Assembly: GCF_900182935.1 (NCBI RefSeq)
Contig: NZ_FXUE01000002.1
Location: 310,001-374,000 of the forward strand
Source of the DNA: Fibrobacter sp. UWB10
GTDB lineage: Bacteria; Fibrobacterota; Fibrobacteria; Fibrobacterales; Fibrobacteraceae
Reading direction: 5' to 3'
Length of the DNA stretch: 64,000 bases
Under the pieces are notes generated by a model. That model was not told where the DNA came from and made no database searches. It was given only the letters and a program-made list of their open reading frames with translations. This document shows, one piece after another, positions 13,480 through 23,726 of this stretch (its first letter is position 1; each line of letters starts with the position of its first letter). Made by a program: the position numbers and the translations under genes.

Positions 13480-13706
13480 GATTGACGCAAGCATGATTTT
13501 TGTCTATATTTGCGCTACCTTATATGAGTTTGCTCGAGTAGGACTTTTTTATGTGCCTACCCAAACCGATGAACCCAGTAAAATAGCGGTTCCGGCGCCG
13601 ATCCCTCTCCACAGATAATCTTGGCTTTCTCCTCAGAAGGAGTGTTGGCACCACCCTTTTTTCGGCCATTGTCAAGGCGCCTCCAATATGGCGCCAAAGG
13701 ACGAAA

Positions 13707-14762
13707 ATGGCTGAAAATACACTCAAAAAGACATTCTCTATCAGGCAAATCAACCTTTCCCGGGGTAACAGGACCTGGTACGGGGTGGTTCACACCGAGG
13801 GCCAGGCTCCTCGGAACATATCTTTGGGAACCACCAGCGCAAAGGCGGCCAAAGAATGGCTTGTTCGGATGCAAGCGGAGGAGCTTTTACCCCCATTGTA
13901 CAGGAAAGCCTTGCGGGATATTCCGCTAAAACAGGCTGAGGATGAGTTCTTTGCTTGCCTTGATGTGTCGGTGAAGAAGATTACTGGATATACCTATTTG
14001 AGCCGTTTGCGTCCATGCTGGCGGTTTTTGGACAGCGAAGGGATAACCACTTTACGCCAAATCACGCAACCAGTGCTTTTAAAGCTGATTAGCAGTTTTT
14101 GTGAAGACCGAAGAAAGACGCTTAGAGAGCGCTTTAAAGGTCTAAAAATGTGGCTGGTGTGGTGCCGCGATAATTATGAGCTAGCAGACTTTGAACCTTG
14201 GCACAATGTCAAATTGAAACAACTCCCTCCCGAGCCTGAAAAGGAGTTTTGGACCATGCCTCAGATTGAGGCTATTTTGAATGCTTGCCCAACGGATCTA
14301 TATAGGCTCTTTCTTGGGCTTATGGCCTATGCTGGCCTGAGGATGTCTGAAGCTCTATATATGCGCTGGGAGGACTTTGCGCCCGATCTTAGTGAGTTTG
14401 CCCTGGTTGGTAAAATGGACAAATTTGCCAAAATGCCCATTAGCGATAAACTCAGGTGCCTGATCGAGAAAGTCCGGCCAAAGAACCTCGAGGGGCGCCT
14501 GTTTGCTGAAGGTAAGTTTCCGCAAAAGTCTTGGGAGCTAATGCCCTTATTAAAAACCGTGGTTATGTCGGCGGGCTTAAATGCCCCGGGACGCATTGGA
14601 CATCACAAGCTCCGCCACTCCTTTGCGACGAACCTTTTAAGATCCCAGGTTGATATAAAAACCGTGTCGACGGCACTCCGACACGCTAAGGTGAGCACCA
14701 CACTTGACATCTATGTCCACACCGTAGATGAATCTGTTAAAGATGCGCTTGAAAAGCTGTGA
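13707..14762 (+). CDS. Tyrosine recombinase / integrase 1
   Basis: A 351-residue site-specific tyrosine recombinase. The catalytic set is complete: R212 (AGLRMSEAL), a Lys near 236-242, H300-x-x-R303 (HHKLRHSFAT), H326 (RHAKVSTT) and nucleophile Y336 (LDIYVH). The N-terminal region (NISLGTTSAKAAKEWL) resembles an arm-type binding domain; the core-binding domain follows at about 75-170. A clear AAAGGAC precedes the ATG. It converges on a second recombinase 11 nt away. The GGCGCC-rich 227-bp region upstream may contain its att or operator sites. Confidence 0.9.
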   Translation: MAENTLKKTFSIRQINLSRGNRTWYGVVHTEGQAPRNISLGTTSAKAAKEWLVRMQAEELLPPLYRKALRDIPLKQAEDEFFACLDVSVKKITGYTYLSRLRPCWRFLDSEGITTLRQITQPVLLKLISSFCEDRRKTLRERFKGLKMWLVWCRDNYELADFEPWHNVKLKQLPPEPEKEFWTMPQIEAILNACPTDLYRLFLGLMAYAGLRMSEALYMRWEDFAPDLSEFALVGKMDKFAKMPISDKLRCLIEKVRPKNLEGRLFAEGKFPQKSWELMPLLKTVVMSAGLNAPGRIGHHKLRHSFATNLLRSQVDIKTVSTALRHAKVSTTLDIYVHTVDESVKDALEKL

Positions 14763-14773
14763 CTTTGGGGCTT

Positions 14774-16021
14774 TTAGGACGCTGTAAGGGTGATTATTTT
14801 CCCGGTGTAGATTGCAGGATCTTCTTGCCCGATGATTGCGCCCTTGCTGTTTGTTAATTCATCGTACACCTCATCCCAGTAGCTGTTGACATCTTTAAAG
14901 TCTGTGCGGTCGCAGTAATATGTGTCTGTAATCCGTGAAGTGTTGGCGTGGCCTAGTTGTTTGTCTCCAAGTCCGGGATGTGCCATGTTTATGCTATGAC
15001 ATCCCGAGCGACGGAGGCAGTTTCCGCCAAGATCCTTGCCGCTTGCTCCACAAACTTCTCGGATGTGTTGTTGAATGATGTCATTTATTTGGCTGTAGGA
15101 GCGGTAAGTAAAAACAAAGTCTCCTTGCATGATGTTTTTTGTGCGAGTTCGACGAATTTTTTCAAAAGCCTCGCAAAGACATTTTGGATATTGGGCGTAT
15201 CTAGCGATTCCTCCCTTCGCGTTTGAAACAACAAGGTGCCCTTGTTGTTTATCAAGATCGCACCATCGTAGACCTCCAATTTCGTTATGGCGTAGACCAC
15301 CTACAAGATGAGCTAGGATGCGAGCTTTTAGCTCGGGAATTTCGCTTTCGCTAGTGAGTAATTTGTGAACATCATCATTGCTAAGGAATGTTTTCACCTT
15401 GCGAATCTTATGTGCAAAGATACGGCTATATCCTCGAATTGCTTCTTCAAATTCGCGGGTCGCTAAGGGTGTTTTGCTGGGGCGATCATACCAATGGAGA
15501 AAAGCCTTTGTTGTTTTGACAATGCTTGCACAGGTTGCCGATTCGGGAACAGTATCGTCTAGGTAATTCAGAAATTTGCCGACATTATCACGTTGGTAAA
15601 GTTCTTTTATATCTTTAATGTGATATTTATTGCAGAATGGAAGTAGATGGCATTTTAAACGAGAACAGTTTGTCTTTGCGGTCTTTATGCGAGGAAGGAC
15701 AAAGCGAAGGTGTCGCTCCTTGTCGCGACAAGCATCAACCATTCTAAGTTTATGTTCGTAATATTGCCTAATAACGGATGCTGGTGATGTGTCTGATTCA
15801 TCTGCTAAAAGTAGTCCAAGAATCCGATCAGCGTATTTCTTATCTGTTGTGCCTAGGCTTATTTGCCCTAGGCGTTGTTTTTCCCCATGTTTACGTGCGT
15901 GAAGTTTGCAGGTTTTACCCTCTTTACCTATACTGAGGTATTCGGCGCCTTTCGATTTCATTTGCTTCCACCATTCGTTTAATGCTTCGGTGGTCATTTC
16001 CCCGTAGGAGTTTCCTTGCAT
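14774..16021 (-). CDS. Tyrosine recombinase-like protein 2 (box II His replaced)
   Basis: A 415-residue phage-integrase-type protein on the opposite strand to integrase 1. Visible active-site positions are R244 (GGLRHNEIGGLRW), K269, R337 in NCLRRSG, H358 (LGHANTSR) and Y368/Y369 (TDTYYCD). The usual HxLR of box II is N334-C-L-R here, so the first His is Asn; many active recombinases tolerate this. Its N-terminus shares ISLGTT with integrase 1, suggesting related arm-binding domains. Both genes end 11 nt apart. Which one moved the island cannot be told from sequence. Confidence 0.8.
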   Translation of the reverse strand: MQGNSYGEMTTEALNEWWKQMKSKGAEYLSIGKEGKTCKLHARKHGEKQRLGQISLGTTDKKYADRILGLLLADESDTSPASVIRQYYEHKLRMVDACRDKERHLRFVLPRIKTAKTNCSRLKCHLLPFCNKYHIKDIKELYQRDNVGKFLNYLDDTVPESATCASIVKTTKAFLHWYDRPSKTPLATREFEEAIRGYSRIFAHKIRKVKTFLSNDDVHKLLTSESEIPELKARILAHLVGGLRHNEIGGLRWCDLDKQQGHLVVSNAKGGIARYAQYPKCLCEAFEKIRRTRTKNIMQGDFVFTYRSYSQINDIIQQHIREVCGASGKDLGGNCLRRSGCHSINMAHPGLGDKQLGHANTSRITDTYYCDRTDFKDVNSYWDEVYDELTNSKGAIIGQEDPAIYTGKIITLTAS

Positions 16022-16907
16022 AGAATGTTTACCCCTGCCTATAAGGAATAGGCTAAAACCAGGACTTGAATTGTCCTACTTTTTTCCGCTTTTGGAATTT
16101 TAGGGGTGAACACTCTCTACAGCCGTGCGAAATCCATGCCCCAGGCCGTAATCAGTAAGTTGATTATTGCCGTCATGGCGGCGCCCGGCCTTATACTGGA
16201 CTAAATTATCCTCGGGATTACATGTGCCAACACCGGACTCGACAGAAATATAGCAAAAACGGCGTTTGGCCTGTCATGTTGCCCATAATCCGTTTTTCTG
16301 CCTTCAATGGCCTGGGGCTATTCACGAATACATCATTGGGTGCGTCAAGTTCGAACCTTGGCTCGGGACTCTTATCAAATTCTCCCTTTACTATGGAATG
16401 TCGGATTTGCGGTTTGGTGGACCTATATAAGAGGCGCCTATCTCCCAGGGCGGTATTCGGAATAGGGCGGGCGCCTATGCCCTAGTGTTTGGTTGTTGCT
16501 GTGTTTATCTTGGCGCTGTTCTGTGGAGTGCGAATCTCTGCCAATGCGGCATGGTAGAGCGGTTTGCGTGAAGAATGGGCTCGTTAGAGTTTGAGCTATC
16601 AGTTCTATTTTCACCTCTATAATTCTAGCCCCCCCCTAATTTTTAATTTTTTTTCGGGGGGTCGCCGTTAGGATTTTTGTTTTTTTAGATCGAGGGCAAC
16701 AAGTGACGAAAAATCCTGGGGGGGCATTCAAGGTGTTCCAAAAAGTGTGCTTTTACGGAGGCGCCCAAAGGGCCCGAAAAGCATTCAAAGTTGTCTCTGA
16801 AAAAGTAGTTGTTGGACTTTTCAGATGTCCCAAAAATAAGACCACTTTTTGACATGTATTGACATTAAAACGATTCTATATTTATGGGTGTAGAAAAGGA
16901 GATAACA
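16022..16907. other. Gene-poor recombination-prone stretch between recombinases
   Basis: About 0.9 kb with no convincing gene. It holds a small dyad AGGAC/GTCCT (16062-16078), three GGCGCC-type sites (one GGAGGCGCC at 16757-16765), a C7 run (16629-16636) facing a G6 run (16656-16661), another G7 run near 16718, and a 9-bp inverted repeat AGGATTTTT/AAAAATCCT (16670-16678, 16709-16717). An 87-codon open frame at 16222-16485 has no ribosome site or protein-like composition. The stretch probably carries promoters of the divergent recombinases and perhaps a res/att site. Confidence 0.5.
16670..16717. repeat. Inverted repeat with flanking G-runs, candidate recombination site
   Basis: AGGATTTTT at 16670-16678 is matched by AAAAATCCT at 16709-16717, 30 bp apart. 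Each arm is flanked outward by a G-run (G6 before, G7 after). It sits about 190 bp upstream of the serine recombinase start, where resolvase/invertase target sites often lie. No experimental support; the role is inferred. Confidence 0.35.
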
Positions 16908-17519
16908 ATGATATACGCCTATGCTCGAGTAAGTTCACTGGATCAAAACCTTGACAGACAAATCGACGCTCTGAAATCTTATGTTACCGATCAGCGTTGC
17001 CTAATTACGGATAAGGCCTCCGGCAAAGACTTTAACAGGCCCGGCTATCGCACTTTGGTTGGCACTTCTGAAACTATGCCCCTACTTCATTCGGGCGATA
17101 CTCTCGTTATCACCTCTTTGGACAGGCTTGGCCGCGATTATGAGTCAATCCGTGAACAATATGCCTACATCACGCAAACCCTTGGGGTCGATATCGTCGT
17201 GCTTGATATGCCGATCCTGAATAGCGGCAAAGAACAAGGGCTTGAAAAGCGGTTCTTGGCCTCCCTGGTGTTGGAGGTGCTGGCTTTCTCAGCCGCAAAG
17301 GAACGCCAATCGATCAAGAGCCGCCAAGCGGAGGGTATCAAGAGCGCTCATGCCCGTGGCGTGAAATTTGGGCGTCCCACGGTTCAAAAGCCGGATAATT
17401 GGGACTCCGTTTATGCTGAATGGCAGGTTGGTAATATAACAGCGCGCGCCGCTCAGCAAATGCTTGGTTTAAAAAACAGCACCTTCTATCGTTTGGCCCA
17501 AGAATGCTCTAAAGCATAG
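16908..17519 (+). CDS. Serine recombinase (resolvase/invertase family)
   Basis: A 203-residue small serine recombinase. The N-terminus MIYAYARVSSLDQNLDRQ carries the nucleophile Ser9 after RV. Further family blocks are VITSLDRLGRDYESI and the long helix ERQSIKSRQAEGI; the C-terminal end GRPTVQKPDNWDSVYAEW...ARAAQQMLGLKNSTFYRLA is the helix-turn-helix DNA-binding domain. It would catalyse resolution or inversion. ATG 16908 is preferred over ATG 16884 because AAAGGAG lies 7 nt upstream and the family starts here. A strong terminator follows directly. Confidence 0.9.
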   Translation: MIYAYARVSSLDQNLDRQIDALKSYVTDQRCLITDKASGKDFNRPGYRTLVGTSETMPLLHSGDTLVITSLDRLGRDYESIREQYAYITQTLGVDIVVLDMPILNSGKEQGLEKRFLASLVLEVLAFSAAKERQSIKSRQAEGIKSAHARGVKFGRPTVQKPDNWDSVYAEWQVGNITARAAQQMLGLKNSTFYRLAQECSKA

Positions 17520-17533
17520 TGGCCCCATCAATG

Positions 17534-17575
17534 AAAAAGCCCCAAAGTGCCCTGTGGGGCGCCTTGGGGCTTTTT
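17534..17575. terminator. Bidirectional intrinsic terminator
   Basis: A near-perfect hairpin: AAAAAGCCCCAA (17534-17545) pairs with TTGGGGCTTTTT (17564-17575), with extra GCCC/GGGC pairing inside. The A-run and T-run on either side let it stop transcripts from both directions, so it ends the serine recombinase gene (+) and the restriction enzyme gene (-). Confidence 0.9.
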
Positions 17576-17592
17576 GTAACCCTTTTTTGTCC

Positions 17593-20500
17593 CTAGAACT
17601 TCACTTTGGGCAAGCCTTTGACGATTTTCATAGTTTCGAGGCTTACGGTGATGATGCGGAGGACCAGGTTAAAGATGTATTTTGGGTCGTTATGTTCTAA
17701 TGCCCAGTCGTTGGGATCGTTGACGATGCCGCTCGCCTTGTCGGTGGTGATGGCGTAGCGTTCCATTATCCATTCGATGGCGGATTTGCCATTGACTACA
17801 TATTCATAGGCCTCTTCAGGAATGCTGGCAATGGCAATTTTATCGTTGTAGATGATACGGGTCTTGTCATCGACATTCTTGGGTTTGCCCTTGCTGTCGT
17901 AACCAGCCTTTTTAGCGAAACGCATCTGACGAACTTTATACAGTGTCTCGGGAGCCTCTGCACTGTAAAAGCCCTTAACATCTGCCGCCATCCCGCTAAA
18001 CATCGGGAGTTCGGAGGCCACCTGGCTTGCTGAGACGATGAGCGCTTTGTAGGGCTCCGCCTGTTCATAATTCAGGTGGATATCGGCGAGTTTGTGGCCC
18101 GCCTTGCTGAACGCCCAAAAATCGTCTGCGGTATCGACAAGCGGGATGCGAGGGAGCATTTTCGTTAAGTCGGTGGAAAATTCGGTGCGGTATTCTTCGC
18201 AGTGCAGGAATCCATAGATGTAGTAGAAAACATCTTCTTTGCGGATTTTGGGGTCGTTATATTGCGTTCGTGCCTGTTTTAGAATGTAATCGCTGATGGC
18301 ATCCTTGCGGACATATTTTTCGTTGGATGCAAAGATGTCTGTTTGGCCCGTTGTCTTGGGTTCTTCGTAATAGTAGAGCGGGAAACATTGCGTTGTTGCG
18401 GCCAAGTGAAGATCTGGAATGCAGTCGGTTATTAACGCTGTAAAGTTTTTATCGCCAGGACTTGTTGTGCATATCACTAGGTTTTGGTGTTCCCGTGTAG
18501 GGAACAACTTATCTAATTGATATGTCATGTCGTTCATTGCAACATTGAAATAACCGTTTTGTTTGCAGAATGGACGATAACATGAAGTTCTTTTGGAATT
18601 ATCTTCAAAATCAATCGGTTTATTTCGCTCGCAGTAATTTAAAATTCCGCGGTTCCAGGAAAGTTTTGTCACATCGTAAGTGACAAATTCCTTTGCCGTT
18701 AATTTGGGCTTTAATTCACGTTCCTTTACAAAATTCAGTCGTTGCTCATTGTAGAAGTTGATGGATTTCTTTAATTGTCTTTCTAATTTTGCTTCTGAGT
18801 AGTTATAGCACCAGGCGTCACGCGCTGTCGCTAGGCCTCGGCTATACACAGGTAAGAACCAGGTCTTACTATTTGCTTTATCGTCTTTGTCACCTATCGG
18901 CGTCCATTTGCCAAAACTTTCGTTTCTAAGGTTGATCCAGTCCCCATGTTCGTTAGGATGGAGTACCGTCATTTCAAGGTGCGTTATGCTTTCGGTATCT
19001 TTGACGATTTTCAGCTTATCTTCGCGAGATAGATAATCGCCAATATCGTAGTATTTGATGACAGCTTTTTTAGTTTCGGTCGGTTGCTTGATAAGGATGG
19101 TAATGGCTACAGGGGTGCGGGATCCACTGCCGAATATCTTGCCGCCCTCCTTTCGGGAAAGTTCACCGCTGGTGCGTTGGTTGCCTCGTAGATTGAAAAC
19201 ATATATCTTGCTGAATTCGTTTTCGAGGCTCTTGCGGAACCCATCCATGGCGTTTCCATCAATCCAACTGCCGTTGGTAATGAAGCCTATAACGCCCCCG
19301 TTTTTAGGATCAAGCCTATCCGTTGCCCAACGGAATGCCTTGATGTAGCTATCGTAAAGCGAGTTTTTATTTGTTGCCGTGCTATTCTGTGCGTATTTCA
19401 GATCTATTCGGCTATCCAAATCGGGATATTTCTGATTTTGTGCATTATCATTTGCGGATTTCTGCCCCACAGAATAAGGTGGGTTGCCGATTACCACCTG
19501 GATGGGCACTTTCTTTTGTGCCCTTGCGCGTGGACCGTTTACGGGGAACACTTCATCGTTAAGGTCTTCTTGATAATCCTTTTCGCCCAACTGGAAACTG
19601 TCAGTCAAGCATATTCCTTCAAACGGCGTATAATCAGAGGCGCCCATAACATCGTGATAGGCATTTTCTATGTTCACGCTTGCGATATAATAGGCCAGCA
19701 ACACGATTTCGTTCGTCTTGAGTTCCTTCGTGAACTTGCGCTCCAAATCCTTCTTGCTTATGAGACCGCTTTGAATTAGGCGGGTCATAAAAGTTCCAGT
19801 TCCCGCAAACGGGTCGATGATGTTCACATTTTCGTCCGTGAGTCTACGCCCGAATTCCTGTTTGAGCACATCATCGACACTATGGAGAATGAAATCGACG
19901 CATTCCACAGGCGTATAGACGATACCCAGTTTCTCGACGGTCTTGGGGAGTGCGCTTTTAAAGAACTTGTCGTAGAGTTCGATAATGATTTTTTGCTTGC
20001 CCTCGGCGCTCTCTACGCCTTCCGCACGCAATTTGACACTCTGATAGAACTTTTCGAGACTGCTCTTATCTACATCGTCGGTGGTGCTTTCCACGGCGTT
20101 GATGACACGCTGTAAGGCCCTGGAAACCGGGTTGTTTTTCGCAAAATCGTAATCCTCAAACAGTGCCTCGAATACGGGCTTTGTAATCAGATGTTGCGAT
20201 AGCATTTCTATTGCCTGTTCCTCGTTTACGCCGGGATTCAGGTTCTTTTTCAATGCCGCAAGGAACTTCTCGAACTGCGCTTTGGGCTTGCCGTCCTGGG
20301 CAATGAGTTTGCGGATTCGGTCTTCGTGGCGTTTGGCAATATCGGCGACATCCTTCGCCCAGTCTTCCCAGTAGCGGCGGCTTCCAACCTTTTCGACCAT
20401 CTTGGCATAGATGGCGCCTTGAAGTTCCTGGAATCGCATTTCAATCTGGTCTTGCAATTCCTGCTGGACTTTTCTTTGCTCGGGAGACAGATTTTCAACA

Positions 20501-23046
20501 TCGCTTCCGGGGAGGCCGCTTGCAACACCAATGCGCCCGCCTGTAATGCTTTTGCCCTTTTGCGGGGTGTTGAACTGAATCTTGTTGACCATCGCGTTAA
20601 AGCGGTCATCATGGGCGCGCAAGGCGTTCAGGATCTTCCAAACGACCTTGAAACGCTCATTGTTGTTCAGTGCTTCTTCCGGTTTTTCGTTGGATGGGAC
20701 AATTACCGGGATAATGATATAGCCGTATTTTTTGCCGGGCGCCGTTCGCATCACGCGCCCCACGCTCTGCACCACATCGACTTCGGAATCGCGGGCGCTC
20801 AGGAACAGAACGGCATCAAGGCTCGGAACATCCACGCCCTCGCTTAGGCAACGGACATTGTTCAATATGCGGCATTCTCCGTCTTCGATGTCCGCCTTTA
20901 ACCATGCCAGGCGTTCCTCACGCTGGGTGGCGCCCATGCCGCCATCAATGTGCATTGCCGATACGCGAACGGTTTGCTTTTGCGCTTCGGGTGTTAGGGC
21001 TTCGTAATAGGAATCCTTTAATTCGTTGATTTGCGAGACGATTTCCTTAGAAACTTTGATGTTCTGCGAGAACGCCACCGCGCGTTTCATGGGTTGCGGG
21101 TCTGTATCTTTCAGCTGGCGGTCATCGACAAGCGTAATCTTAGAGAGCGCGTTAAAACAGCCGATCAGCTTCGCTTCGTCATCGGTGAGCATTTCGCCTG
21201 TTTTGGTCGCTAGGGAGAGTTGCAGACTTTCGCTCATCGCGAGCGGGTCAATGGTAAGGACAAGGACCTTATAATCAGATAGAAGTTCCTTGTTGACGGC
21301 ATCACCGAACCCGATACGATACATTTCTTCGCCGTAAAGTTTCGGATCGTCCATAGAGCATATTTCGACAGAACCCTCTTCAGCCTTCTTTTTACTGGAT
21401 TCGCTGTAAAGGCGTGGCGTTGCTGTCATGTAGACGCGTTTCTTTGCCCGCAAGAAATCCGGGTCATGAACCTTGACGAAGTTCGAGGCCTCGGCGCCTA
21501 ATTGGGTTGCGCCTGTGGTGCGGTGCGCCTCGTCACAGATGATCATGTCAAACTGAAAACTGGCGCCTATTTTCTTCTGAGCTTTGGAAATTACATCGAT
21601 TGACTGGTACGTGCTAAAAACGACCGTCATGCCGCCTTTCTTGTAACGGGCTATTTCCAACTGCTTGACGATGGAGTTCACATCTGTGGATGCTGGCAAA
21701 GCAAGGCTTGTGACGCTGTAGCCGTCGCCTTCGTTTTCTCCGCTTATATGGACTTTCTTGGAAACGCCCGTGTCGGAACAGATGCAGATGGGCTTAATCG
21801 GCTTTGTTGCATCGGCGGTCCATTCGCGAAGGGTTTGGCCTAAAAGCGCGATAGAGGGGACCAGGAACAGGATTGTTCCCTTGTTGTCGGTTTCCTTTTC
21901 GGCTATGCAGAGTGAGGTGTAGGTTTTTCCTGTTCCACATGCCATAATGAGTTTGCCGCGCTCATGCTTCTCGTCCTTGAAATACTCATGGACCTTTGCA
22001 ATGGCTTCTTTTTGATGGTCACGGGGCTGTTTCTTTTGCACCTGGGCGTTTTCGCCACTGGAGCCCTTATCGAGGCGGTCCCAATCCACCATGGCATTTT
22101 CAAGCTCTAAAAGTCCGACGCGGTGGAATTCCGGGTCCTGATTTTCAAGCGAGTTCAACGCCTCTTTATTGAAACCGTGTTCCGTTGTGTCAAGCCATAG
22201 GCGGTACGCAAAGTGGACCTTGTTTCCGTCCTTATCTTTGAATGTCTTTCCTGATGTTGCCAGGAATGTATCTACAGCGGGCTTGTCGATGATAGCGTCT
22301 GCCTTGTAGCACTTACACTGAATAGCCCAGTAGTTTCCGCCAGTCGTTTCGGCCACAAGGTCGATGCCGACATCCTTGCCGCCAAACTGGTCCTTAGCAA
22401 AGAAGTTTTCCCAAAGCCAAACATTCGAAAGACTGCTTGCAAAAATCGGGTCCGTTTGCAAATAGCGTTGCATCAACAGTTCGAACTTGTACCCCTTTTG
22501 CTTTTGGGATAGCGAGTCCTGACGATACTTGTCGAGTATGCGGGTGAATGTTGATTTGTAGGCGTTGCTATAATCCATCTTGATTTCGCTTTCGTGCTCC
22601 ACTCCGGGCATATAACGGATGCCGAGACCACCCGGCGACTTGATCCATTCGGATTCGGGCCACAACTTGAAACTAAGGATAGGGACTCCAAAATCGCCGT
22701 TGGACTCCATTGCATCGCCAGTTTCCACTTCGCCGATAATCATGCCGGATCCGTTGGTCTTGCCAAACAAGGTCTTTGCCTTGCGACAAGCCTTTTGGAA
22801 TGCTTCCTGGGCCGCTTCCTGTTCGCTAGCAGACTGCTTTTTAATGGATTTGCTCAACTGCTTCTGCCAGTATCCGAATTCGGCTTCTAGGTCGTTGTCT
22901 GTGGCTGTGTATTGTGATATAGCCACGGCTAGGCGCTTGTTTGCGAATGTCTTTGCATTGGTGCGATATTCGAATGTTTTTACTCCCGTAACGATGAGTT
23001 GGGCGAACGGGGATCGAACGACGAAGTACTGAAGCGGCTTGTCCAT
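17593..23046 (-). CDS. Type ISP-like restriction-modification enzyme with N-terminal ASCH domain
   Basis: A single 1817-residue chain. Residues 1-150 look like an ASCH domain (FVVRSPFAQLIVTGVKTFEYR). About 185-300 is an Mrr-type PD-(D/E)XK nuclease (VGIDLVAE then AIQCKCYK, 243-248). About 335-820 is an SF2 helicase: Walker A ACGTGKT (369-375), DEAH (505-508), TAT (541-543), QSVGRVMR. About 1020-1300 is an N6-adenine methylase: DPFAGTG (1078-1084) and NPPY (1198-1201). The rest is probably target recognition. The order nuclease-helicase-methylase-TRD matches Type ISP enzymes such as LlaGI; the ASCH head is extra. ATG 23046 is used because the frame upstream of it crosses a tRNA gene. Confidence 0.88.
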   Translation of the reverse strand: MDKPLQYFVVRSPFAQLIVTGVKTFEYRTNAKTFANKRLAVAISQYTATDNDLEAEFGYWQKQLSKSIKKQSASEQEAAQEAFQKACRKAKTLFGKTNGSGMIIGEVETGDAMESNGDFGVPILSFKLWPESEWIKSPGGLGIRYMPGVEHESEIKMDYSNAYKSTFTRILDKYRQDSLSQKQKGYKFELLMQRYLQTDPIFASSLSNVWLWENFFAKDQFGGKDVGIDLVAETTGGNYWAIQCKCYKADAIIDKPAVDTFLATSGKTFKDKDGNKVHFAYRLWLDTTEHGFNKEALNSLENQDPEFHRVGLLELENAMVDWDRLDKGSSGENAQVQKKQPRDHQKEAIAKVHEYFKDEKHERGKLIMACGTGKTYTSLCIAEKETDNKGTILFLVPSIALLGQTLREWTADATKPIKPICICSDTGVSKKVHISGENEGDGYSVTSLALPASTDVNSIVKQLEIARYKKGGMTVVFSTYQSIDVISKAQKKIGASFQFDMIICDEAHRTTGATQLGAEASNFVKVHDPDFLRAKKRVYMTATPRLYSESSKKKAEEGSVEICSMDDPKLYGEEMYRIGFGDAVNKELLSDYKVLVLTIDPLAMSESLQLSLATKTGEMLTDDEAKLIGCFNALSKITLVDDRQLKDTDPQPMKRAVAFSQNIKVSKEIVSQINELKDSYYEALTPEAQKQTVRVSAMHIDGGMGATQREERLAWLKADIEDGECRILNNVRCLSEGVDVPSLDAVLFLSARDSEVDVVQSVGRVMRTAPGKKYGYIIIPVIVPSNEKPEEALNNNERFKVVWKILNALRAHDDRFNAMVNKIQFNTPQKGKSITGGRIGVASGLPGSDVENLSPEQRKVQQELQDQIEMRFQELQGAIYAKMVEKVGSRRYWEDWAKDVADIAKRHEDRIRKLIAQDGKPKAQFEKFLAALKKNLNPGVNEEQAIEMLSQHLITKPVFEALFEDYDFAKNNPVSRALQRVINAVESTTDDVDKSSLEKFYQSVKLRAEGVESAEGKQKIIIELYDKFFKSALPKTVEKLGIVYTPVECVDFILHSVDDVLKQEFGRRLTDENVNIIDPFAGTGTFMTRLIQSGLISKKDLERKFTKELKTNEIVLLAYYIASVNIENAYHDVMGASDYTPFEGICLTDSFQLGEKDYQEDLNDEVFPVNGPRARAQKKVPIQVVIGNPPYSVGQKSANDNAQNQKYPDLDSRIDLKYAQNSTATNKNSLYDSYIKAFRWATDRLDPKNGGVIGFITNGSWIDGNAMDGFRKSLENEFSKIYVFNLRGNQRTSGELSRKEGGKIFGSGSRTPVAITILIKQPTETKKAVIKYYDIGDYLSREDKLKIVKDTESITHLEMTVLHPNEHGDWINLRNESFGKWTPIGDKDDKANSKTWFLPVYSRGLATARDAWCYNYSEAKLERQLKKSINFYNEQRLNFVKERELKPKLTAKEFVTYDVTKLSWNRGILNYCERNKPIDFEDNSKRTSCYRPFCKQNGYFNVAMNDMTYQLDKLFPTREHQNLVICTTSPGDKNFTALITDCIPDLHLAATTQCFPLYYYEEPKTTGQTDIFASNEKYVRKDAISDYILKQARTQYNDPKIRKEDVFYYIYGFLHCEEYRTEFSTDLTKMLPRIPLVDTADDFWAFSKAGHKLADIHLNYEQAEPYKALIVSASQVASELPMFSGMAADVKGFYSAEAPETLYKVRQMRFAKKAGYDSKGKPKNVDDKTRIIYNDKIAIASIPEEAYEYVVNGKSAIEWIMERYAITTDKASGIVNDPNDWALEHNDPKYIFNLVLRIITVSLETMKIVKGLPKVKF

Positions 23047-23079
23047 GTAAAACTCAGTGGTGGATGTTGTACGCCTGAA

Positions 23080-23102
23080 AATATAGTCATTTAGGAGGCG
23101 CC
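23080..23102 (-). promoter_or_regulatory. Candidate promoter of the restriction-modification gene
   Basis: On the minus strand a -10 hexamer TATATT (plus 23080-23085) lies 34 nt before the ATG, with a weak -35 (TTCAAG) 16 nt further upstream. The spacer contains GGCGCCTCC, the same 9-mer found upstream of integrase 1 and of the serine recombinase, so a shared island-encoded factor might act here. Evidence is by eye only. Confidence 0.35.
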
Positions 23103-23240
23103 TTGAATTGGTTTTGTGTGTTTGTGGAGCAAACGCTTTGAAGGCGAAATTTGCGTATTTTTGCAAACTTGCAAAGCAAAACCGGGTGACAAATGAGCAA
23201 AGTTTTGTTATCTTTGGAGGCACCTCAAAGATGAGGCCGG

Positions 23241-23314
23241 GCCGTCGTAGCTCAGTTGGATAGAGCAGTTGCCTTCTAAGCAACGGGTCGTGGGTTCGAC
23301 TCCCGCCGACGGTA
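23241..23314 (+). tRNA. tRNA-Arg (anticodon UCU)
   Basis: A 74-nt cloverleaf. The acceptor GCCGTCG pairs with CGACGGT (a G-U at 1-72), the D arm is GCTC...GAGC, the anticodon stem GTTGC/GCAAC holds loop CTTCTAA with anticodon TCT, and the T arm is GTGGG-TTCGACT-CCCGC. The discriminator is A and CCA is not encoded. It reads AGA codons. It is the first of two tandem copies and borders the mobile island. Confidence 0.93.
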
Positions 23315-23324
23315 GGAAATTGGA

Positions 23325-23352
23325 CGCCAGTCAAGATGACTGGCGCCTTTTT
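23325..23352 (+). terminator. Terminator after first tRNA-Arg
   Basis: Stem CGCCAGTC (23325-23332) / GACTGGCG (23338-23345), loop AAGAT, followed by CC and a T5 run. It ends the transcript of the first tRNA-Arg gene. Confidence 0.85.
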
Positions 23353-23470
23353 GTATTTAACGGCAAATTTAAAGCGTGCTGTTCGCGTGCTGACCACCCG
23401 TGCTGGTGCTTTGCTTTCAAGCCCTTATGGTTTGTGGTGTTGGTTGGATTCATGAATACCCAAAACGTGC

Positions 23471-23499
23471 TTGACAGAAACCAGCACGCGTGCTATATT
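23471..23499 (+). promoter_or_regulatory. Sigma-70 promoter with palindromic operator in the spacer
   Basis: A consensus -35 TTGACA (23471-23476) and -10 TATATT (23494-23499) are separated by exactly 17 bp. The spacer contains a perfect 12-bp palindrome, AGCACGCGTGCT (23483-23494). A repressor bound there would block RNA polymerase. Other copies of the half-site lie on both sides. It points at the short open frame starting at 23586. Confidence 0.7.
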
Positions 23500-23585
23500 C
23501 GTGTCATAAAATTGAGCCTTCGCGTGCTGTTTTGGTGGTGCTTAAATGCCGGGAAACCGCATCAACACTGGGAAAATACACGATG

Positions 23586-23708
23586 ATGGCCGAAAAAAAC
23601 AGCACGCATACTCCACAGAGGACTCCTCAGATTACTCCGCAGAGAAATTGGCGCTTTTGGCTGAAATTTGGCGATTTTGAACGAAAAACGGCAAATTCTA
23701 TCCAATAG
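23586..23708 (+). pseudogene. Truncated N-terminal remnant behind the remnant promoter
   Basis: A 40-codon frame starting MAEKNSTHTPQRTPQITPQR, about 85 bp downstream of a strong promoter. A TPQ unit is repeated three times, from imperfect ~15-nt DNA repeats. Both this frame and integrase 1 begin with MAE, but the similarity stops there. It may be the 5' end of a lost integrase or regulator, or non-coding. It stops 18 nt before the second tRNA. Confidence is low. Confidence 0.3.
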
Positions 23709-23726
23709 CTGGAACAATTCACAATT

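Follow-up and report, generated by a model that had tools for sequence, protein, structure and literature searches.

The Type ISP restriction-modification enzymes LlaGI and LlaBIII combine in a single chain an Mrr nuclease, an SF2 ATPase, a coupler, an N6-adenine methylase and a target-recognition domain. Such enzymes start from an asymmetric site that lacks methylation, translocate along the DNA and nick it when they collide head to head (PMC7049714). ASCH domains, in turn, are long-standing candidates for readers of modified bases in defence systems. Standalone ASCH proteins and ASCH-HsdS fusions, predicted binders of modified DNA, occur in archaeal Type I restriction-modification (R-M) loci (Bell et al., 2020; PMC7641849), an ASCH-nuclease fusion occurs in other defence loci (PMC10853773), and BapA, which has an ASCH fold, assists its partner Brig3 by deglucosylating phage DNA that contains glucosyl-5hmC (PMC13160076). 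The YqfB-type ASCH proteins of Escherichia coli bind no nucleic acid and have free ac4C as substrate (PMC9599836). Finally, the EVE-HNH enzyme VcaM4I and YTH-McrB place a PUA-superfamily domain N-terminal to a restriction nuclease; these are Type IV enzymes without a methylase.

The window analysed here, i.e. the whole stretch of 64,000 nucleotides from the rumen-type bacterium Fibrobacter sp. UWB10, codes for an enzyme with the single-chain layout of LlaGI and LlaBIII (Table 1). We place its start at 23046, since an open reading frame from an upstream GTG at 23397 is ruled out because it would cross a tRNA-Arg gene (23241-23314), and since homologues start at the equivalent methionine (MQQDKPLQYF, MPQDKPLQYF). 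Pfam finds Mrr_cat_2 (residues 197-330, 1.6e-37), ResIII (339-545) and Helicase_C (655-768), followed by ISP_coupler (892-1016, 1.1e-47), Eco57I (1152-1283) and Type_ISP_C (1398-1794, 4e-105). The succession of nuclease, SF2 ATPase, coupler, methylase and target-recognition domain, given by this Pfam order and by alignment with LlaBIII, agrees with the nuclease-helicase-methylase order that a first-pass annotation of the locus had recognised as that of Type ISP. The nuclease, ATPase and methylase motifs are all present, GKDVGID..QCK being aligned with LlaBIII, and judged by architecture and motifs the protein is a complete Type ISP restriction-modification enzyme.

Table 1. Positions of the predicted features of the window.
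Feature	Position	Strand	Remarks
Mobile island carrying the enzyme	13542..23724		10.2 kb; inserted in the 5' part of a tRNA-Arg gene
Tyrosine recombinase of the island (Phage_integrase)	13707..14762	+	
Second tyrosine recombinase of the island	14774..16021	-	
Serine resolvase-family recombinase adjoining the enzyme	16884..17519	+	
Type ISP restriction-modification enzyme with N-terminal ASCH head	17593..23046	-	1817 aa; ATG at 23046, stop at 17593
ASCH head, aa 1-147	22606..23046	-	GxKTxExR aa 21-28; IIGE aa 103-106
Linker, aa 148-163	22558..22605	-	Variable length; lowest conservation (alignment, substitution rates)
Mrr-family nuclease, aa 164-335	22042..22557	-	GKDVGIDLV at 223, IQCK at 242
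SF2 helicase-like ATPase, aa 336-780	20707..22041	-	GTGKT 371, DEAH 505, QSVGR 760
ISP coupler domain, aa 892-1016	19999..20373	-	Pfam
N6-adenine methyltransferase, aa about 1020-1290	19177..19989	-	DPFAGTGTF 1078, NPPY 1188
Type_ISP_C target-recognition domain, aa 1398-1794	17665..18855	-	Pfam
Second tRNA-Arg(TCT) gene	23241..23314		
Open reading frame of 2577 aa	54967..62700	+	Low-GC DNA; no Pfam match

The enzyme lies on a mobile island that is missing from a genome of the same species (G136) and that rebuilds its target tRNA-Arg(TCT) with a different 5' acceptor strand. Its match to LlaBIII (4xqk) is collinear from residue 164 on (phmmer E reported as 0, 1194 bits), and since both LlaBIII and the ISP-type models of PADLOC align only from that residue, residues 1-163 are extra. 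LlaBIII and all examined ISP enzymes outside Fibrobacteraceae start at the nuclease, in contrast to the window enzyme with its approximately 163 additional N-terminal residues.

In order to identify this head, we compared it with domain and structure collections. Taken alone it matches Pfam ASCH with an E-value of 7.6e-4 and 20.6 bits, against a gathering cut-off of 21.2 bits; 14 of the 15 members of its family match ASCH weakly (E<0.1, best 4.3e-4), and the family profile retrieves EOLA1/CXorf40A from the PDB (E 0.015). A fold predicted from a five-sequence alignment with moderate confidence (mean pLDDT 66) has ASCH/ASC-1-type proteins as all 16 of its 16 best structural matches (VIA-align, Z 8.7 to 3.8), led by EOLA1 (Z 8.7) and TRIP4 (Z 8.2) and followed by Thermus, Zymomonas and other ASCH structures; TRIP4 ASCH entries with bound dsDNA (8yfj, 9kyl) are among these matches, and Foldseek likewise puts EOLA1 first (E 6.8e-4). 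The signature G-x-K-x-x-E-x-R (G21, K23, T24, E26 and R28) is invariant in the 15 members and aligned with EOLA1. Also invariant within the family are R11, P13, T29, N30, N36, K37, R38, I103, I104, G105, E106, W129, E133, W134 and S137-G142. The competing assignments, namely DUF6065, DUF3289 and NCBIfam families, gave single, weak matches that are not common to the family. Family-wide similarity and the modelled fold thus identify the head as an ASCH domain, and the match is not due to chance. The first-pass annotation, which had proposed an ASCH-like domain of about 150 residues ahead of the nuclease, is therefore borne out by the weak Pfam matches across the family, by the family profile and by the predicted fold, the HMM and structure searches placing ASCH-type proteins on top.

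The head shares the ASCH fold and the G-x-K-T-x-E-x-R motif with EOLA1, the ASCH domain of TRIP4, ZmASCH and YqfB, and carries a helical insert at residues 50-96; unlike all four, it is fused to a restriction enzyme. The comparison with YqfB bears on the idea that the head is itself an enzyme, which would remove or trim a base modification and thereby expose masked sites to the restriction enzyme that it is fused to or encoded beside. We consider this unlikely, though somewhat less so than the other alternatives discussed below. The pocket-type residues K23, E26, R28 and E106 are invariant in 15 of 15 members and can be set beside the catalytic residues K21, T24, R26 and E74 of YqfB (PMC9599836), and the deglucosylation of 5hmC by the ASCH-fold BapA offers a precedent. 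Lysine and arginine are retained, and Glu106 is likely the equivalent of Glu74, a correspondence made by eye. However, in the gap-free GxKTxxxR alignment the nucleophile Thr24 of YqfB is replaced by Glu26 in all 15 members, which makes amidohydrolase chemistry of the YqfB type on ac4C unlikely.

Head sequences occur in 17 of the 167 genomes of the phylum, every one of them from Fibrobacteraceae. Four genomes carry the head fused to an ISP enzyme (the window's own, G000, together with G076, G129 and G150), and in the remaining carriers it is either a separate gene coding for about 150 aa or a broken copy. A profile search of 391 genomes from 253 genera added one match, a very weak Fibrobacteraceae fragment, and found no head outside the phylum; no relatives were found in plasmid, phage and viral collections either. 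Given the absence from the 391-genome sample, the family looks limited to Fibrobacteraceae at the sensitivity of the search. Among genome-encoded ISP-type nuclease matches, 4 of 26 have the head. The plasmid ISP enzymes compared come from Spirochaetota, Actinomycetota, Pseudomonadota and Bacillota; 12 of 12 start within 26 residues of the nuclease match and lack a head. A head found on the ISP enzymes of four Fibrobacteraceae genomes only is not a common feature, and the earlier remark that no described enzyme of this kind was known holds for the open-access papers searched, in which we found no description of an ASCH-ISP fusion.

The head can also be lost. The enzyme of G126, 85% identical over the nuclease, has no head and yet nests among the fused enzymes in the tree (fork of four 98/93). 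Its N-terminus, MPQDKPLQ-NKSSFTRIL, joins the first residues of the head straight to the nuclease, an in-frame loss; because its ISP part is intact, the head is dispensable for the enzyme. The sister G139 is headless too. From these comparisons, the fusion is a lineage-specific event in Fibrobacteraceae, both recent and reversible. Where the head is kept, sequence comparison indicates that purifying selection acts on it, whether fused or free: synonymous sites between the fused genes are near saturation (pS 0.64-0.93), pN of the head is 0.10-0.23, somewhat higher than in the catalytic domains (0.06-0.14), and omega of the free heads is about 0.04-0.18.

Free heads, genes of approximately 150 aa, are found in about a dozen Fibrobacter genomes and mostly adjoin R-M genes of differing types, counted when directly downstream or within a few kb. 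The neighbours comprise a C5 methylase, a MutH-fold nuclease and a further C5 methylase (L025), a SEC-C protein with a C5 methylase (L037, L029), a Dam-type methylase (DpnM) with DpnII (L028), an SNF2 helicase with a small gene and a Type III methylase (L030), a control protein with a McrB-like nuclease gene (L026, L035), a two-domain C5 methylase with a Type II nuclease (L024), C5 methylases (L023) and a UvrD-like defence helicase (L027); a broken head lies beside a Type I HsdM (L031), and at L036 and L038 an R-M gene is absent from the sequence stretch around the head. Of the 13 free or broken copies, 6 have a C5 methylase at a distance of at most 10 kb, where the frequency of such genes in these genomes would predict 0.18; with homologous operons collapsed, the figures are 4 and 0.13. 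The clusters were merged by hand, and as the copies are related, the probability serves as an indication only. Most free heads hardly differ in sequence, although the methylases beside them produce either m5C or N6-methyl-A; the head is therefore probably blind to its partner's own mark. That partner chemistry is irrelevant is also what an unmasking enzyme would predict. Since the same domain stands as a separate gene beside many R-M systems, it can be regarded as a plug-in module of DNA defence.

Two further explanations have to be weighed against this arrangement, both of which we hold to be improbable, and slightly more so than a catalytic head. One is a regulatory or protective role, in which the head would bind RNA or DNA and either control the expression of R-M genes or keep the nuclease in check on the host's own DNA. 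Free heads often stand first in the R-M operon in the fashion of a controller protein, RNA binding is a classical ASCH property, and control of an ISP nuclease is critical; a transcriptional controller, however, would hardly be expected at the nuclease end of the enzyme, and G126 tolerates the loss. The other is that the ASCH gene merely hitch-hikes, marking the edge of an insertion hot spot for R-M genes in Fibrobacter, the ISP fusion being an insertion accident without functional coupling. In the free copies DNA similarity ends near the end of the ASCH gene and gives way to unrelated R-M cargo, a multi-copy repeat lies just upstream, and one fused relative has lost the head. Against such an accident speaks the maintenance of an in-frame fusion under purifying selection in four diverged genomes, as does the fact that rearrangements (G123, G082, G144) have left the ASCH gene in place ahead of one and the same C5 methylase.

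The best reading of the head is that of a modular accessory which handles or reads nucleic acid, probably modified, for restriction systems, by analogy with the published cases. This one conserved head occurs in three states: as a gene of its own among R-M systems of unlike kinds, as the N-terminus of one enzyme, and deleted in an enzyme closely related to the latter. For the window locus in particular, we give about even chances to the proposal that a mobile, complete Type ISP enzyme carries an ASCH plug-in that handles a modified base of invading nucleic acid. The ISP part would work like LlaGI and LlaBIII, with unmethylated asymmetric sites triggering ATP-driven translocation and converging enzymes nicking the DNA. 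The head, tethered at the nuclease end by what appears to be a short flexible linker, might bind, and possibly flip out or process, a modified base close to the nuclease. Phage DNA that conceals ISP sites through its modifications could then still be caught; a joint model of head and nuclease (pLDDT 45) is too poor to show contact. Its target would be something common to all partner systems, most likely foreign modified DNA. That YqfB-type ASCH proteins do not bind nucleic acid counts against such binding. The loss of the head in G126 and the moderate quality of the head model also weigh against the proposal. The sensing of modified or phage DNA that the first-pass annotation had suggested can reasonably be inferred from the ASCH/PUA superfamily and its published links to R-M systems, an enzymatic or regulatory role being possible as well.

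Set beside these published links, the Fibrobacter family shows both likeness and difference. As in the cases of Bell et al. (2020; PMC7641849), an ASCH domain is tied to an R-M system with predicted recognition of modified DNA; those cases are archaeal Type I loci and involve HsdS, whereas in the window the domain sits at the nuclease end of a Type ISP enzyme and its family adjoins Type I, II, III, McrB-like and ISP systems. The N-terminal placement recalls VcaM4I and YTH-McrB, from which the window enzyme differs in its own predicted methylase. The proposed action resembles that of BapA-Brig3 (PMC13160076), where an ASCH fold likewise serves a partner in defence against phages with modified DNA; BapA, unlike the head, has two barrels, is a separate protein and aids a glycosylase rather than an R-M enzyme. 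A bolder version, which we regard as tentative and clearly less probable than the proposal for the window locus, would make the Fibrobacter-specific ASCH family a universal plug-in of Type I, II, III, McrB-like and ISP systems that reads or strips phage modifications, the ISP fusion both marking its own DNA and attacking modified DNA. If true, the fused protein would merge Type I-like with Type IV-like restriction. The natural set of ISP enzymes with and without the head makes the modified-base question directly testable.

Several observations were made alongside this analysis. The repeat upstream of the free ASCH genes measures approximately 400-600 bp, is often present in several copies per locus (for example L024:8075-8774 (-), L035:1750-2146 and L023:6767-7176) and contains an open reading frame of about 105-130 aa (MENDTFGGAILAWVK..., without a Pfam match). 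Free ASCH, KilA-N/RhuM-like and R-M genes are placed like cassettes between its copies.

In G129 and G076 the fused ISP gene, and in G126 its headless counterpart, is preceded by an RNA-like element of approximately 165 nt. It consists of two hypervariable but complementary helices in otherwise near-invariant sequence and ends in a terminal U-run. In 26 copies it has 13 covarying pairs and 115 doubly-changed cells, 98% of cells being paired, and its covariation score was reached by 0 of 500 shuffles. The inner hairpin has a competitor in a long 3' helix that precedes the U-run, an arrangement reminiscent of an attenuator; being conserved but hardly variable, this helix is without covariation support. 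The element, which has no match in Rfam 15, occurs in 87 of 167 genomes and is multi-copy in Fibrobacteraceae (e.g. L033:4469-4634 (+), L002:7773-7937 (+), L117:12704-12866 (-) and L120-L148). Its model finds no copy in the window, and we rejected such a leader as part of the window locus; the window's genome holds two strong copies elsewhere (G000:C5:66590-66758 (-) and G000:C1:814826-814995 (+)), each preceding an R-M gene, one HsdM and one HsdR-like.

An R-M gene stands next to the element in about 22 of 29 sampled best copies, usually 30-105 nt downstream, and the genes behind it include HsdM, HsdR, Type III Mod, MmeI- and other Type IIG, EcoRI methylase and ISP genes. The element is a candidate for a new regulatory RNA or a shared leader of restriction systems. 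Helix combinations recur across genomes (one stem pair in L002, L132 and L143, another in L134, L137 and L148, and another in L126 and L142), as if the variable stems were type labels. Behind the element there also recurs a three-gene module of about 224, 139 and 101-119 aa, the first weakly matching DUF4417, which lies between or behind element copies at L120, L121, L127, L132, L133 and L138. It is possibly a defence or anti-restriction module, and in several of its loci a second element copy follows, with an R-M gene about 1.8 kb further along.
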